The position numbers and the translations under genes were made by a program. From the NCBI RefSeq assembly GCF_026151205.1, contig NC_087077.1, positions 2,854,001 to 2,914,000 of the forward strand: DNA of 60,000 bases, written 5' to 3'. The first letter of the stretch is position 1; each line of letters opens with the position of its first letter. A model generated the notes under the pieces. The model was not told where the DNA came from, made no database searches, and saw only the letters and a program-made list of their open reading frames with translations. Source of the stretch: Bolinopsis microptera. Lineage: Eukaryota > Ctenophora > Tentaculata > Lobata > Bolinopsidae. Positions 33,394 to 44,200 of the stretch are shown piece by piece.

Positions 33394-36300
33394 ATGGCAG
33401 TCGTTATCAATGGCAAAGAGATCTCCAAGTTGGTTTTATAAATTTCCATTGTGATTTGTATTTAACTTCTTATAATTGTAAAAGAGGCATCACAATGAAT
33501 AATTTTAATGTCTGCTGCTCGTTAGAGCCATTGTGAACTTTGAATCTCAGAACCAAGCAAGGTGAACGAAAGGAATAAAAGTGCAATTTTACAACTTTAA
33601 CACCATTCAGAAAAGTACGAGAGGATCTGAAGGAGCATGTTACCGCACTGGCAGAGTGGGACGTTTTTAAACCTGGGCTAGCAATCGTTCAGGTGATCTT
33701 TCTCAGTTCATATACCTTTCCAAACTTCGGCAGCTTTCATTGACATCGAATTATTTACTGATTGGGTGATTGTTGTCTGGACACAACTATTGAATAATTA
33801 CTTTTGGGTAAAGTCATGTTAGGACAAAATCAAGATGGGCAACTCATGTCCAAATTAGGAATGCATTTATTTTCACAGGTGTTATCTCATTATATTTGGT
33901 ATGCTTAAAATAACTTTACAAGGTTGGAGACCGACCAGACTCCAACACCTACATCAGAATGAAGATAAAAGCAGCCAGCGAGATTGGAATACGTGCTCAA
34001 CACATCAAACTTGGAAACCAGTCCACCCAACAGGAGGTTTCTGATTTCAATTATTCAAAATTTAAGATCAATTGTGTTTTGCTGGCTAAATATTTATTTG
34101 TACTTCAGGGCCTATTACACCACTATTTAACACAGTGTTACCTCTGTAAGGTGATATCCGCATTGGAATGTTTGAACAATGATCCCGAGATACACGGTAT
34201 CATACTCCAACTACCACTTGACACATGCTGTACTGTTGATGAGGATGTGTGCACCAATACCATCCTCACTTCTAAAGATGTTGATGGGTACAATTTTTTT
34301 ACAGATTTAAGCTATTTTATCCCTTTATTATTAAGAAAGGCACGATTTTTCTCCCCTAAAAGCTGGTAATTAGGATATTTAATGAAACTATTAAACTATT
34401 AAAACATCGTTATCGGTTATATCGGCTGGAATATAATCAGTCGCATCACATGACTGAGTCGAATGACTGAGTCACATGACTGATTCACGAAGTAACAACT
34501 CTTTATCTATACATAACATTTATAGATTGACTGAGGTGAACAATGCTAGATTAACACGTGGTGTTCTGGCAAGTTGCCATATACCCTGCACTGCTAAAGG
34601 GTGTCTACATCTCATCAAATCAACTGGTCAGTCCCAGTTATTGGAAATATTTGTCTGTATAATATTGATTATTTAGTCATAATTCATGGTTTAGATTCTA
34701 GTTATGAAGGTTGTAGTTTGTATTTGTTTGAACAACTCTATTTCAGGAGTTAAACTCGAGGGTAGCAAAGCTGTTGTTATTGGACGTAGTAAGATTGTGG
34801 TAAGTTAAGCAACTTTGACTGTTACAATATTAAGTGATATTATCTTACAGATTAATATCTCATAAAATAAGATATAGAATATATGATATCATGATATTCT
34901 GAATTAAATTTTTCCATTCCAGTTTTAATACTTTCAACACTACTATATAACAAATAATTTGAGGTCCCAATGTCAAAGCGATAGAAGAGACTATGACGTG
35001 ACCGTTTGTATCCTAAGCAACGCATCTACTTCCTGGGCTACAGTATTGACTTCGCCATTTTCTCCTCCCTCACTGCCATTTTCTCCTCCCTCCTTCCATC
35101 ACTATGGATCTGAATTCTGTTACCAATGTTTTAAACTCGTTTTCATTAAATGAGCTGAAAGCTCTTAAGGCCAGTGTTGAGAATGTCATGAAACTTAAGA
35201 GGGATTCTGTTAAATGCGAGGACTTCTTGGAGTTGCATTCAGATTTTAGTAAGAGGTATTTACCCTCTGTTGCACACATTTTGCTATTGCACACATTTTC
35301 CGACACTTGTAAAAATTTCACGGATTTTCGACACTTGTAAAAATTTCACAGATTTTCGACACTTGTAAAAATGTCGAGGATTTTCGACACTTGTAAAAAT
35401 TTCACGGATTTTCGATACTTATAAAAATTTCGAGCAATTTCAGCCTTTAGTTGAAATTATCATATTAATACGTTTTTAGAGTTGTTAGAGTGGAAACAGG
35501 TGTATAGCTATGGCTAGCTAGCTATTCCAAAATTTTTAAATTTAACGACTGTTATCAGTTGCATAGCATCATGCCGTTTTTGTAGCAAGTAAGAAAAACA
35601 TGAAGTGAGTTTGACACCATGTGACAGCAAACTTGAGCTAGACCTGTTTTTGTTTCATGGTAACAATCCGATTATATCAAGCTGGAGAATAGTAAAAACA
35701 CGAAGTGAGCTTGACATGTTTACCACGTGACAGCAAACTTGAGCTAGACCTGTTTTTTGTTTCATGGTAACGATCCGATTATATCAAGCTGGAGAACGGT
35801 AAAAACACGAAGTGAGTTTGACATATCCACCATGTTACAGCAAACTTGAGCTGGACCTGTTTTTGTTTCGTGGTAACGGTTCGACTATATCAAGCTGGAG
35901 AACGGTAAAAACACGAAGTGAGCTTGACATGTTTACCACGTGACAGCAAACTTGCAGCTTGCCTACATCGCTCAAGGGACAAGCAACATGCAATGACGTT
36001 TGTTTTCATGGTAACGGTCTGACTATATCAAGCCGGAGAACGCTGCGGGAAATCAGATTGAATCAGTTCGTTTCGCAGAAGTTTGTAATCAATCAGTTCT
36101 TGATTGATAAATCTACTCAACTCGTTCCTCCACAGGTTCTATTTTATCTTAAAAAGATGCACAGTTCGTTCTTTAGTCTTGTGATACATAGTTCGCTCTT
36201 CAGTTTGCTAATTTGATTCTAATTCAAGTTGCATGCTAACTTATCATAAATAGCAGGGGCTCGTATTATACAATAATATTTAAACGTTTTTAACCCAACT

Positions 36301-38203
36301 TGAGAGTCTAAATTTTGAATTCTAAAATTCATATTTCTTATCTAATTTTTTAAATTTTATGTTTAGTAAGCACTATGGAACCAGGACAACTGAACACCGA
36401 GACAAATGTTGAACAACATTCTTAAAACTCACTGACACATACCAACACCTTGAGCTAGTATTAATTGTTTTAAGCTTTTTATACGTAAAAAATTCGAGCA
36501 TTTTTGACACTAGCATTTTCCGATACTTTCAAGAATCTATAATAGAGAAAACAGTCAGCCCTAACTAATATTGAGTTATTTTCATGTTTCTTATATTGAT
36601 TTAATGTTTCCTTAGATGACCTGGTTATTAATGTTTTAAACTATCTGCTTTTTATTAATTTTTTCACATTAAAATCTTACTCAGCAATGATTGTAGAAGG
36701 TGTACTAACCTTCATTGGGAGTTCGTGTAAGGGGAGGGTTAAAATCGTTGTAAAAACGAAAGATAACAAGGAGACTGACTATCTTATATGGTCATCGATT
36801 GTCCCCGATGAGCTAAAGGTTTGTAGTTTGCCATACAAAAGGATCAAATTTTAACGGTTTTTTAAAAATATTTCAGTTCAAAACAGTTATAGTGTAAAGT
36901 AGGAGATTGAAAATCTGACATCTGCTCGTAAAATTACTATTAGTGACAAATTCATCATATGAAATTTTTGTGACACAAATTTTCAATTTGCAATTTATTT
37001 TTGTGTAATAGAAAATAATATCAAACAGATAAATAGTAAGATAAATATGAAGACTCTTGAAAAGATTGTAAACGGCAAGTCTTACACAAATGTTGTTGGG
37101 TTAAGCATCATCACACCAGCAGTACAACAGTCAACCCCAGCAAAACACCGAAAAAGAGTGAGTCTATTTTTAAAGAAATCAATATATTTCTACAGTTTAT
37201 ACTTTTGAACATATAATTTGTGTGTACATCTAACCGTAACCGAACCCTCGATTTCTCATATTTAAGGTAATATTGATTAATCACCAGGGTTCAGGGGCCA
37301 CGCAGGTAAAATCACGATCTAAGATGTAGATGTATTTCTAACCTTAAATCTACATGTTTTGACAAGCATGCACCACCGTGTAAATTCAAAAATCTTCACA
37401 TGTCATTGCTGTATTACACAGTGATTTTAATTTGTTAAGTTACATCGTATGTCAATTTGAAAATTTTCCAGATAGCTAAACGACCTACCGCCACTACCAG
37501 AAACCCAGGTAAAAACAAAACCCCTCCATTTTAGATTTGGAAGACCTTCTTAGAAATGATACATATTTAGTTTTTATTAAAATTTCAAACCATTGTAATC
37601 GAATGCTATACAAATAGAAACTAGATCAGTGTATAAAATTATACCTACGAGCTAGCTCACTCTATAGTTTAATGTTTAAGAATAATTAGAAATGATTTAA
37701 ATTTTGGAATTGGTTCATCTAATATGAAAAATTTTCATTTCAGATGCAGACGAGGACACAGTCACACCAACCACCAGCGCAGCTGTCAGTCCCAAAAAAG
37801 TGAGATTATTTTCCTAGTATCTAAGATATGTATTTCTAACTTTAAATCTACAAGTTTTGATAAGCATACATCACCATGTAAATTCAAATGAATATTCCAT
37901 TGATCTGTTAGTCACTGAGGATCAAAGCCCTATTCATTCCTGTGATTATCAAAGATCCTGGTCAATAAGTCTTATCAAACACAACTCAATCGTTTGGAAT
38001 GAATATTCCATTGAGGATAAAACAACGATATTATTGTTAATAACACATTCAATTTGTAGATGAAATCTAAGGGGAAGCAGCTCCCCCCACCTGCAGACTT
38101 CATAGATTGGGCAGCTCTGTTGGATGTAAGTAATTTAAAATCCTAACAGCTCTGTTTAGTAATATTAGCTGGTTAATGAGATAGAGTTATTTAAAAAAAT
38201 TAA

Positions 38204-38244
<41 letters not shown>

Positions 38245-41200
38245 TATTTGAGACATTCAGTGAAACAGTAAAACACGAAATTCACATAAATTATATATAT
38301 ATAATTTTGACCGAAATAAAACTCTACAAGATTCTCAGGATGATGTTTTCTACATAACTGTGATGGCCGCTTTTGTGAAACTTCAAAAACTTGTTGATGA
38401 ACTCAATAACAGTTATAAAGGGAAAGGTAATTTGTCATCTTCTTTTATGAAACTGATTACGTACGTTACGTGATTATTAATGTTTTTGTATTGCAGCTTC
38501 TTTTGATCGAAGTGTTTGAGAGTCATAAGAAACCTAGATCTCAGAAATTAATCCAAACAGTAATGTCAAACCCCTGACATTAATAAGTTAATTAAAATTA
38601 GTTATGATTAGATAATAAGTTAATTAAAATGAGTTATAATTAAAATCAAATCTTACAAAAATTTCGTTCACTATAGATATCTACACAGGTATCTACACAA
38701 GTATCTACATTCTACAGGGTTCACTATAGGTATTTACATATTATTCTGATTTCTTCAGATTTAAAGACAGAGCAGGAGTTATTAAAGGAGTGGAAGAACC
38801 GTCAAAGTAAAGAGAAGTCAGAAAGAGAGAGACTGCTAGGAAAGTACAAGTCTAGCAAGATACCAAGAGTTGTAACATCTCATAGACCAGTGGAAATGAA
38901 CGTTGGGAAACAAATAGTCGCTGGTGGTGCTGCATATCAACCTCCCAAACCAAGATAGAGATCGTGTCATCAGAGGTTCCATACTTTTATGTAAGACTAC
39001 TGTCAATTATACAACATACTATTTGATCAGATTTATTTGGCATGAATTTCCATACATTCGATGGACAAGATTCTGAAAAAAATGATTCTATAGCGTTTAA
39101 TTTTGTTTCTTCAATAATTTGAATTAATTTGTTTTATTTGTACAAATGAAAACAAGTTCATAAAGACATAAAATAAAACCAATAAAATTACAACTAATTG
39201 ATATCAACTACATCGAGAAACTTTCCGTTTGGAGCAATCCATCCGACGACCCAGTATTTGTGTCCAATTTTCATATTTTCAAGTTTCTGGTATGCAAAGT
39301 TATTTGGGAAAATAACCGGAGCAAAGGCTTTGTTATCTACTTCACTGAAAAGCTCTAGTTTGAACCCTGCACTGTTTGAATACTGCTTTAACGTTTTAGA
39401 AACGATCTGCATTTGAGTATTCACTCTTTTCTTGTGTTCTTCCTCAGGTATCAATCGACATCCATCGCATCCAATCTCCATTCTTTGAGTATCAATACCC
39501 TCCAGTGAGTTAAAGCATATTGGACAATTGTCAACGTGAGATGAAACCATGTTAACGAGTATAGGATACCCATCCTTGTAGGAATATTCCACTTGTACTT
39601 CTTCTCCCACTTTGAAGGGAATCGTGGTACTGGATCTAGTACTTCCAGGTTTCTTTAACTGTACGGTATCCCAAACATTGAACTTAATCAATCTTGTCTT
39701 GAATGGTATATTCGTTGAGATCGTCAAGCGAGTGTATCCTTTTGTATTTGGATTAATTTCACAAATCAATCCATAGTTGTTGAAGAGAGCCATGTTTGAA
39801 ACGTAACCAAAGTTCTATATCAAGAAATGAGCTCTCTACATTCCAACTCGATTTATATAGGCGAGTCACTGGGCATTGAATTCATGAAGATCTTAAAACA
39901 ATTGCGTAACATGTACTTGTTTTCATTTGCCATCTGAGTAACATCTGATAAGTTCAGCTCTTCTCGTATTGCTTGCAAAACTATATTTTCATGGATATTG
40001 ATGATATCTTCATAACTCTTACTCTGAGCTGATATCAAAATATCAAACATAGGGAGTACTCTTTTTCGAATACGGTAAATGTCAAACATAGTTATAACTT
40101 TGGTTCTTTGATAGTATGAAAGCTCAGAGTGAAGCTCATTCAGAAATTCTGATGGTGAGTTGACAAAGAACTCTTGGAAATATTGTGTGCTGGTCTGCAT
40201 CTTTAATCGGTCAAGGTTGGAACTCTAAGTTCTTATATATCATGCCTCCCTTCAATCAAAATGAACTCTGGATACTCTGAAAAGTAGCACCCATCTCCAA
40301 ACCTCCGTCCATGTTTAACAGGGTGGTTTAGATCGAGATTGTTCCTGATGATACTGGGAACATTGGTTAAAAGCTGTGGCATGGTAAGCAAATATTTCTT
40401 TGGGGTGTGTGGTTATGAATTAGTCTGTTCTTTGAAGAAATATAATTTACCTCGATAAATAAGTTTTGAATTAGCCCGATCACATTCACTCTCTTTAGTT
40501 TCGAGTATTTATCATAAGAGAATATGACACTCAACCTGGACCTATAATCGATACTACCAGGAAAGTTTACGAGATGCAACTCTTAAACCTTAGTAGCAAA
40601 GTCCGATCTTCTAGATTGGTGGGTAAAATCCAAGTTGAAAACTGAGCCGAGTCATGATTGCATCTGTATGGATACAAAGGATGACATATCAATACCTGTT
40701 GATCGAACAAAGGAATTATATAGTTTTGATGAGTTGCACTTGAAATATCTTATCGATCAAATTGGAGAGATTAAAATTGTTGTTGATTCTGTTGACCTAA
40801 GAGACATCGGAAACTCAGAAATTCTGATGGTGAGTTGACAAAGAACTTTTGGAAATATTGTGAGCTGGTCTGCATCTTCAATCAGTCAAGGTTGGAACTC
40901 TAAGTTCTTATATATCATGCCTCCCTTCAATCAAAAACTTTCTATTCATCCATCTGTATTGTCCCAACACCTCGATCGTTTCTGCAACAGCATTAGAACA
41001 TTGTGGTGCATGTAGGTGTTGGCTTTTAGTGTTATGATTGTACTTTGTAACACAGTATGGGTAGATGGGTTCATTTCCAAATATTTCCGTTTGCTTAAAT
41101 CGGACAGACTTCTTAGTTTTATTAGTTGATGTCTTTTTCAGTATTGATGTTCCTGGATACCATGTCTGTGGAAGTTCTATATCAAGCAAAAAGTATTCAC

Positions 41201-44200
41201 TCCTATTATCAGCACATTTATGAAGGGTGGGTGCTTCTTTTCCTTGCATGTGTAAGAACAATCGCTTTTCAAACTCTTTGCGACGACGTTCACAAATTGT
41301 TAGAACCTCATAACCATAACAAAGTTTTTGCTCTTTCAGCTTTGTGAGCAGATCTTCAATTGATAAATCACGGATCTCTTGCATATTAGCTCATATCATT
41401 CACCTCTATAATATGGTTGCTTGCTGTTAACCACCCTACTACAACATAATTTTTACCTACTTTTAAATTGGGTACTCGATTAAAAACAAGAGTGTTTTCA
41501 AAAATCCTTGCTCTTAAAATTCTATTCTCTTTAAGATAGAGTAACTCTAATCTGAAAGCTCTGGTAACCGAATAACTATGTACAGCAAGTAATCTCATGA
41601 TCCCAATAACAAAACCTCTGTGATATTCATCTTCAATAAGAATATCTGACATTGCAAAACTAACAAAAAGAGAAATGAGATATATAATGATGTTGATCCT
41701 TTTAATAACAAATTTTTACAATTGATGAAATTGCTCGAAATTTTTACAAGTGTCGAAAATCCGTGAAATTTTTACAAGTGTCGGAAATCCGTGAAATTTT
41801 TACAAGTGTCGGAAAATGTGTGCAATAGCAAAATGTGTGCAACAGAGGGTAAATACCTCTTACTGATTTTGTTCAGAACAAGAGTGTTCAACATGGCACG
41901 TTGATGTCTGAACTTGAAACACTTATGGCCAAGCAAACTGCTGTGAAAACTGCCACAAAGTGGCTCACTTCCACTGGAGAAGAATATGTATGGTCTTCCT
42001 CAAATGGACACACCACGACTAAGGAGCCAATCGATATTTTAAATTATCCTGGGATATCAGAGCTTATGCATGATATCAACTCCAAGTTTGGCTGCAAGCT
42101 AAACTCATGCCTAGCAAGCATGTACAAGTCTGGTTCTTGTGCAACTAGGTACCACAACGACGACGAGACGTCTCTTGACCAGTCGCAAGGTATTTATGTA
42201 GTTTCATTTGGAGCTGAGAGGACCCTCGACATAATTCCAGAAAATGGGGATAAGCGATGTAACAGTAAATGCTATATCACCCCAAAGGACTGTAGTTTGT
42301 ATATTATGAAACCGGGGTGTCAGGAATATTGTCTTCACAAGGTTCGTGCAGAGAGCTCAGTTAAGGGGACTCGGTATAGCTTATCTTTTCGCTGCCAGAT
42401 ACCGAAGACAGATACAAATGTAGTCAAGGAGCAGATTGCCCGCACTACAATTCCTATGCCGCCCACCACCACCTCAACACCAACCCTTTACTACCGAAAT
42501 GCTCCAAGAAAACCGAAGAGCAGGAAAACCACTGTCCTGTTTGGTACGTCGATGACAAAATTCGTACGGACAAATAAGTTGGGATTCCGGGGAAGGAAAG
42601 TAATCAATGTGTCTCAAAGTGGTGCAAAAATTAGAGACATCACTGAAAACATTCATCATTTTCATAAAACTCATGCAGCTGCAGAAGCTGACGATATTGA
42701 AAAAATTATATTGAGTGTTGGTACAAATGACATTAAAAATTCTAAGTATGGGGTTCAGTTCCTTAGGAAGTATCTTACTGAATTAATTGACACCACTAAG
42801 CAGTTATTTCCCGCTGCAATTATAATTATCCAATGTTGTCTTCCTATTAAGTGTTTATATTCCTACATAGCAAAGAATGTTCTTAACAATCTACTTAAAG
42901 ACTTATGCCTAAAGAATAATTGCGTGTTCCTAGACTGTTTCTCAGACTTTTTAACTCGAGACTTTAGATAATGTAATGAACTTCTATACCATGATTGGCT
43001 TCATCTCAACATGAGAGGAGTAGGTTTACTGTCCACTTGGCTTAAGTTTGTTGTAATCGAACACAGGTTTGACAGGGTTGTAAATAATCTTCTGGGAATT
43101 TAAATCTTTGATCTTTTCTTCCATTTAATATTTTGATTAAGACGTTGCGCCTAAAATTAAAACTCAAACAAATATCTGATTTAATCTTTTTCTCAATTTT
43201 ATGCCTCCCATTTCAGGTACATTCGGTCACTGTCCATTTTCCAATATGTTAGACAATGAATCGTTTAGACTTAGAATAGGTCTTTTTGCATGCAAAAGGC
43301 CTCGTACACAGTCAAGAAATGCACTTATACATATCAACACGTTTATACCTAACAAAATTTACACATTTTAGTCTCCATACACCCCACACATCAACTACAA
43401 TTATCATAATCATATGTTTCTCTTCTATTCTCTCATCATGACTTACTTTCTCCCAATTCTTCTCTCCACGGTTAGGTCCATGAACACCGTATTCCCCCTA
43501 GATTCTAATATTCATTCCTCTCTACTCCTTGACAGCCCACGTTATCTTATAACATTTCTTGCTTGCTCCCACATCAAACTTTTCTTTGTAATTATCTCCT
43601 CATGGTTTATAAGAAATGTTCTTCTCCCTGGTAAGATTAATAGAGTCAAGTATTCCAGCCGCCTCAGGCGTCTAGTCTCTTTATTCATTCTTTGGGTTTT
43701 CTCTCTTAACTTTCTTCTGATAACTCCTGTTAATCCTTCTATGCTTAATCCAGGTCCCAAATCCCTATCTGTACTATACCAAAATGTCCAAGGTCTTATT
43801 CCTTTCAGTAACCTAAGCTCCTCCCATCCCCTTCTTGATGGTAATAAGATTTCCGAACTTCAATCCTTTGCTAACATAGAGCAGCCTGACATAATTGCCC
43901 TAAATGAGACTTGGCTCAAAAAGTCTATTTCTAGCAACGAAATCTTTCCTTCTTCTCATTATGAAATCTTCCGCAATGACCGCACGAGAAAGACTCATCC
44001 TCAAGATCCTAATAACCCTAAAAAGTTTAGGGAAAATGGAGGTGGTGTTCTTTTGGCTGTTCGGTCTGATCTCGACGCCACTACAACCCGACTACCAGTT
44101 AGCCTAGGTGCAGAAATGCTTGCCGTTAAAATTGCTTTCCCTAACAAAGAGAGTATTGTAATCTGTACTTGTTATAGAGTAGGAACTCTTGGGTTACCTA

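Follow-up and report, generated by a model that had tools for sequence, protein, structure and literature searches.

What kind of mobile DNA spans 6.6 kb between clean terminal inverted repeats (TIRs) and encodes no recognisable transposase or polymerase? The question is raised by a unit at positions 35248-41864 of a 60,000-nucleotide stretch of the genome of the ctenophore Bolinopsis microptera (GCF_026151205.1, contig NC_087077.1, positions 2,854,001 to 2,914,000, forward strand; hereafter the window, whose numbering is used throughout). An earlier sequence-only reading had considered a new class of DNA transposon, a new small DNA virus, or a non-autonomous satellite of a Polinton-like element. 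Comparisons across the host genome make it very probable that the unit comes from a resident Polinton (Maverick; adintovirus-like) family, as a non-autonomous copy with an internal deletion that lies within open reading frame (ORF) 1 of a long interspersed nuclear element (LINE). It is an ordinary kind of element, plus one anomaly in one gene, in which exons have diverged more than introns.

Boundaries of the unit and its long relatives

The GATTTT duplication and matching ends by which the sequence-only reading had delimited the unit were both recovered. The inverted arms (35248-35402 and 41710-41864) measure 155 nt, are 95% complementary and are composed of 28-bp subterminal repeats. GATTTT occurs once, in unbroken host sequence, in all five related LINE copies examined, and the joined flanks with one GATTTT aligned to each of these copies without gaps at 166/166 positions and 97-100% identity; the unit is therefore a true insertion into ORF1 of the LINE. 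Because the flanks match one uninterrupted copy (L044) at 100% over 166 bp, and at 99% over 1.1 kb on the right side, the insertion looks young. Hallmarks of Polintons (Mavericks) are a 6-bp target-site duplication and long TIRs beginning with AG, and the unit shares both.

Pfam searches of eight ORFs of the unit returned no transposase, polymerase or capsid match, and neither integrase nor PolB was found in the window copy. The earlier statement that nothing of this kind is recognisable thus holds for these ORFs, but not for a longer relative, the C11 copy. Such relatives were obtained by the genome-wide terminal-repeat search that the sequence-only reading had proposed: with the left repeat (35248-35445) as query, the host assembly (264.65 Mb) gave 50 matches and, besides the window, eight facing terminal-repeat pairs of 15.8, 20.6, 21.3, 21.6, 22.2, 22.3, 27.6 and 29.6 kb. 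By eye, a perfect 6-bp duplication flanks six of the eight; the C13 pair agrees at 4/6 bases, and the termini of the C10 copy were not found. The unit and the long copies have near-identical sequence at both ends, and of the three options of the sequence-only reading the last, a non-autonomous satellite of a Polinton-like element, is the right one.

The C11 copy, which was read as three separate pieces, carries the start of DNA_pol_B_2 (PF03175; positions 8-77 of the 468 in the profile; E 7.8e-5, below the Pfam cut-off), an integrase with an rve core (2e-12) and a C-terminal chromodomain (4.3e-13; both Pfam), a P-loop frame matching Adeno_IVa2 weakly (0.0021) and ATPase_2 (0.0013), both below cut-off, and an adenain-like protease (Peptidase_C5, PF00770; 1.5e-6). 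Between ATPase and protease lie ORFs of 278 and 531 amino acids (aa), neither with a Pfam match, which we infer from size and order to be the capsid genes. This gene set appears to correspond to that of Polintons, described in PMC6431247 by PolB plus integrase and a typical length of 15-25 kb; the unit differs from them in its missing core genes and its 6.6 kb. An rve integrase with a C-terminal chromodomain is named as an adintovirus trait in PMC11071296. The likeness to adintoviruses lies in this integrase architecture; a difference is the capsid-sized ORF of C11, which matches neither Pfam nor PDB. A PolB with an OTU-like N-terminal domain and a hexon recognisable by BLASTp are further marks of adintoviruses.

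Several points weigh against the assignment. The 531-aa ORF went unmatched in Pfam and PDB, which leaves size and position as the grounds for its capsid role. PolB was recognised at its start only, and three more frames from there to the integrase gave no Pfam match. The Pfam search of long copies covered selected ORFs of C11 alone; ORFs were listed for the copy at C5:4397002, whereas for five of the eight the view was limited to the ends or left part. Frames of the C9 copy (L009-L011) look broken and homopolymer-rich by eye, possibly reflecting a poor consensus.

Two further observations concern the distribution of the family. Many Polinton left-end and terminal-repeat fragments cluster at C11:18.55-18.91 Mb (L030, L031, L036, L041, L064), and in one of these loci (L041) two 70-bp terminal-repeat pieces stand 1127 bp apart.

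Composition and origin of the short form

Judged from these matches, the window copy is both ends of the family without its core, about 3 kb of left end and 2.8 kb of right end (Table 1). Within the left block, 35954-36349 was matched in C8 (99% identity to its left end) and C152, and 35954-36287 in C9. With the C11:18.62 copy the identity over 36414-38214 is 98.6%; about 36431-38220 was matched in C5:12.57, C13 and C152, with 93-97% identity to the 29.6-kb C5 copy and C152, both of which lack a 143-bp stretch of the window block; overall, the left block is 93-98.6% identical to L039, L040 and L041. Beyond this block the 29.6-kb C5 copy continues with a repeat array of about 100 bp per unit and then with sequence 98% identical to the C11 stretch upstream of the polymerase frame. 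Such arrays of roughly 100-bp repeats between left-end gene and polymerase, recognised from overlapping BLAST matches, occur in several long copies (L039:3332-6369, L027 and L009). The right block begins inside the protease gene, of which the window retains the 3' end only; it is 98.3% identical to the right ends of C11 (39065-41826; L016) and C5:4397002 (39065-41815; L013), and 86% to the C9 copy.

The two blocks are joined by an AT-rich dispersed repeat and a 708-bp fragment, for which the C3 locus, at 95% identity, was the sole overlapping match among the 40 candidates scored out of 106. The 5.5 kb around the C3 locus gave no match of at least 250 bp to the compared pieces of long copies. 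As the fragment retains an intron, it was taken up as DNA. The sequence-only reading had described one seven-exon gene across this junction. Of its exons, those ending by about 38125 are Polinton left-end sequence, while exons six and seven lie in the C3-like fragment, so that the seven-exon gene is a chimera; the spliced peptide of the C3-like part gave insignificant matches only in Pfam and PDB.

The proposed course of events is as follows. A Polinton integrase would have acted on the ends, around which the 6-bp duplication stands. The core, comprising polymerase, integrase, ATPase, capsid-sized ORFs and protease, is lost, and the ends are joined via the AT-rich repeat and the fragment found elsewhere; template switching, or the repair of a break with filler DNA, would fit this architecture. 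Any further movement would require integrase and polymerase supplied in trans by a full-length relative.

As to the order of these steps, we lean towards a deletion in place, by break repair with filler DNA after a full-length insertion. The inner junctions were seen once only, and the borrowed fragment at the junction keeps its intron and hence was copied as DNA; a deletion that came first would, however, yield the same structure. This second order, a possibility to which we give somewhat less credit, would make the unit a mobile non-autonomous satellite, deleted first and then integrated at 6.6 kb by a Polinton integrase acting in trans. The termini and the duplication are indeed intact, and the genome contains a long copy whose integrase frame is open, but no second copy with the same inner junctions occurred among the 40 candidates scored out of 106, where the C3-like stretch matched C3 only, and the left blocks of other copies cease matching at the microsatellite. 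Because no such second copy was seen, mobility of the short form is unproven. Finally, that the unit represents a novel transposon class or a novel small virus, although compatible with the Pfam result for the eight unit ORFs, is highly improbable given ends near-identical to those of long elements, one of which (C11) carries Polinton core genes with PolB-like, integrase and protease frames and capsid-sized ORFs.

The deletion derivative also invites comparison with Pack-type elements, which are internally deleted, non-autonomous DNA transposons with captured fragments. Like these, the unit has intact termini, lacks its core and contains a piece of foreign DNA with the intron still in place; it differs in that its structure was seen once, without evidence of amplification as such.

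Table 1. Features of the 6.6-kb unit in window coordinates
Feature	Position	Strand	Evidence
Left target-site duplication, GATTTT	35242-35247	.	Sequence; single GATTTT in LINE copy L044; joined-flank match gap-free in 5/5 copies
Left TIR with 28-bp subterminal repeats	35248-35402	+	Inverted-repeat comparison
106-bp tandem repeats, left subterminal region	35616-35959	+	
Polinton left-end block	35954-38214	+	Matches in C8, C152, C9, C11:18.62, C5:12.57, C13
First exon (exon 1) of left-end spliced gene(s), beginning with ATG	36687-36818	+	Comparison of copies: third-position bias, 3-nt indel
Exon of 37 codons beginning with ATG, donor GTGAGT	37047-37157	+	
Exon, AG/GT bounded	37472-37508	+	
Exon, AG/GT bounded, 3-nt in-frame indels between copies	37744-37799	+	
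Exon, AG/GT bounded, last of Polinton origin	38060-38125	+	
AT-rich short dispersed repeat at left deletion border (our label: MITE-like, for miniature inverted-repeat transposable element)	38225-38306	.	18 other loci (query about 1850-1957)
Captured or filler fragment, holding the two exons below and the intron between	38351-39058	+	95% to C3:7666824-7667532
Last two exons of the sequence-only reading, in the C3-like fragment	38362-38426, 38759-38958	+	Read by eye
Polinton right-end block, beginning inside 3' end of protease gene	39065-41864	-	L013/L016 match; junction sequences
Accessory ORF, 199 aa (206 aa stop to stop), two halves around a CPxC...CxxC centre	39194-39793	-	
Accessory ORF, 123 aa stop to stop	39853-40224	-	Same ORF in L013 and L016
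Accessory ORF, 160 aa stop to stop	40908-41390	-	
Accessory ORF, 109 aa stop to stop, paralogue of 206-aa C-terminal half	41386-41655	-	
Right TIR	41710-41864	-	Inverted-repeat comparison
Right target-site duplication, GATTTT	41865-41870	.	Sequence

Divergence of exons and introns in the left-end gene

The spliced plus-strand gene announced by the sequence-only reading is genuine, the chimeric seven-exon form apart: several other copies have it at their left end. Read in phase, exon 1 meets a stop at six codons of the AG-bounded stretch that follows (by eye) and may be a separate 50-aa gene; its protein gave 14 match rows in the genome, the window included. Two introns of the left gene (37330-37390 and 37828-37888) share 61 bp at 90% identity, which suggests a duplicated exon-intron unit or a mobile intron.

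We compared the gene with 14 other copies and in a 5-sequence MAFFT alignment, with the last Polinton exon taken as 38060-38125 in the former and as 38057-38122 in the latter. Differences from C5, C13 and C152 were found at 27/131, 27/131 and 22/131 third codon positions, at 8/131 first positions in each case and at 4/131, 4/131 and 3/131 second positions. At noncoding sites the same copies differed at only 17/1243, 12/1234 and 13/1324 positions, and their exon indels relative to the window are multiples of three. For C12a the counts were 45/79 third positions and 32/370 noncoding sites, so that across these four copies third positions are 17-57% different and introns plus flanks 1-9%. Fisher tests on eight left-gene pairs gave p values of 9.9e-16 to 6.9e-23 for five pairs and 0.0018 to 0.0002 for three closer ones, values that serve as guides only, given that sites and copies are not independent. 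Exons far more divergent than introns and flanks, mainly at silent sites, were noted over the region 36687-38125 for L039, L040, L034, L030, L059 and L065.

Third-position divergence exceeded noncoding divergence in 12 of the 14 copies and was at least fourfold higher in nine. The excess was limited to 1.5- to 3-fold in C11:18.91, C11:18.87 and C11:18.899. None was seen in C10 (3/57 third positions versus 34/532 noncoding), in which the frame has indels and a stop, or in C8 (0/14 versus 21/316), which offers very few sites.

The right block served as comparison within the same elements. Relative to L013, 4/564 third positions and 17/955 noncoding sites differ; relative to a subfamily with a 71%-identical 206-aa protein, 173/401 and 89/244. 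Among 13 right-block pieces with countable sites, none showed a comparable third-position excess. Third positions in the right ends of C5 and C13 are unchanged against the window (0/71 and 0/94, covering part of the 109-aa ORF only). Judged by these right ends, the elements seem to have parted from one another only recently, and it is the left exons that are the outlier, unless the right ends were recently exchanged.

A CpG-related or otherwise one-sided mutation process was rejected as the cause, the third-position changes being of many kinds; at A sites alone, exons of the C5 copy differ at 10/44 positions and noncoding sequence at 6/455. Patchy gene conversion of the noncoding DNA is disfavoured, since the stretches rich in differences begin and end no more than a few bases from the exon borders. 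Three explanations are considered: selection on the mature mRNA, conversion by cDNA, and an unusual constraint on introns combined with recombination. We offer as a tentative proposal, and one that we think is rather unlikely to be right as it stands, that the left-end Polinton gene diversified exon by exon at the level of the mature mRNA. Either silent changes would evade small RNAs directed against the spliced transcript, or an error-carrying or divergent cDNA would overwrite exons across looped-out introns. Introns and flanks would in both cases be left nearly as they were. Titles and abstract openings of the literature searched contain no description of exon-over-intron divergence, which is not proof of absence.

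Right-end accessory genes, the interrupted LINE and implications

The small minus-strand ORFs of the sequence-only reading are borne out by four open frames (206, 123, 160 and 109 aa stop to stop), and TATATAA-like motifs were recognised by eye upstream of three of them. All four are present in L013 and L016, and since the right end of C11 is 98.3% identical to 39065-41826, these one-way ORFs are Polinton accessory genes. The 109-aa ORF matches the C-terminal half of the 206-aa ORF at 30% over 86 aa (E 2e-14 in a single comparison, 8.4e-6 in the genome search). With the 206-aa ORF as query the genome gave 45 matches, 36 of them without internal stop, a count that includes pieces of one copy and the 109-aa paralogue; the frame recurs at 96-100% in C1:335278, C13, C18 (one internal stop), C10 and C5:12598322. 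In an eight-row alignment (A2), seven divergent members are 37-71% identical to the 206-aa protein, all share CPxC...CxxC, and 42 columns are invariant throughout.

Database comparisons of these proteins were negative. PHROGs returned nothing for five proteins save one chance-level match (0.19), PDB searches by sequence with the 206-aa ORF and with its profile gave insignificant matches only (best 0.16 in each), and the eight A2 members had sub-threshold Pfam matches only, the commonest a zinc ribbon in 3/8. In IMG/VR, no relatives of the 206-aa ORF, the 531-aa ORF, the integrase, the 160-aa ORF or alignment A2 were confirmed. An AlphaFold model of the 199-aa protein singly reached a mean pLDDT (predicted local distance difference test) of 39.9 and was unusable for a fold search; a fold resembling replication protein A (RPA-like, or oligonucleotide/oligosaccharide-binding) therefore stays a guess. 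We would likewise guess from its zinc-ribbon-like centre that the 206-aa protein may bind nucleic acids. When the right block was scanned for bacterial-type promoters, a test of little relevance in a eukaryote, 6 were found where 10.9 were expected, hence no excess. The block also contains a 122-bp direct repeat at 97% (40140-40261 and 40815-40936), matched in L013 and L016 as well.

The LINE around the unit (35050-35241 and 41871-42971; L044:1303-2739) shows ORF1 followed by an endonuclease ORF, and its 1.1-kb stretch 3' of the unit has at least 41 genome matches at 93-100% identity, the window included. In L044, one 478-aa frame holds a 2OG-Fe(II) oxygenase-like match (0.0022, below cut-off) and a GDSL esterase (1.7e-12), and the next frame an endonuclease domain (1.7e-10). 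ORF1 of this LINE thus joins a sub-threshold 2OG-Fe(II) oxygenase-like part, AlkB-like by eye, to a GDSL/SGNH esterase; a literature search for LINE ORF1 with AlkB and esterase found no paper.

For the family, the unit illustrates how a deletion derivative could be taken for a novel class of transposon unless longer relatives are sought. It helps to delimit this Polinton family, for whose right-end accessory genes the Pfam and PHROGs scans gave no known domain, and is an example of a Polinton with an incorporated intron-containing fragment that is also present elsewhere in the genome. The pattern in the left-end gene matters more than the unit itself. Divergence that is up to 20 times faster at silent sites than in the intervening introns is the reverse of the usual expectation and, if confirmed, would mark a process that sees spliced RNA only.

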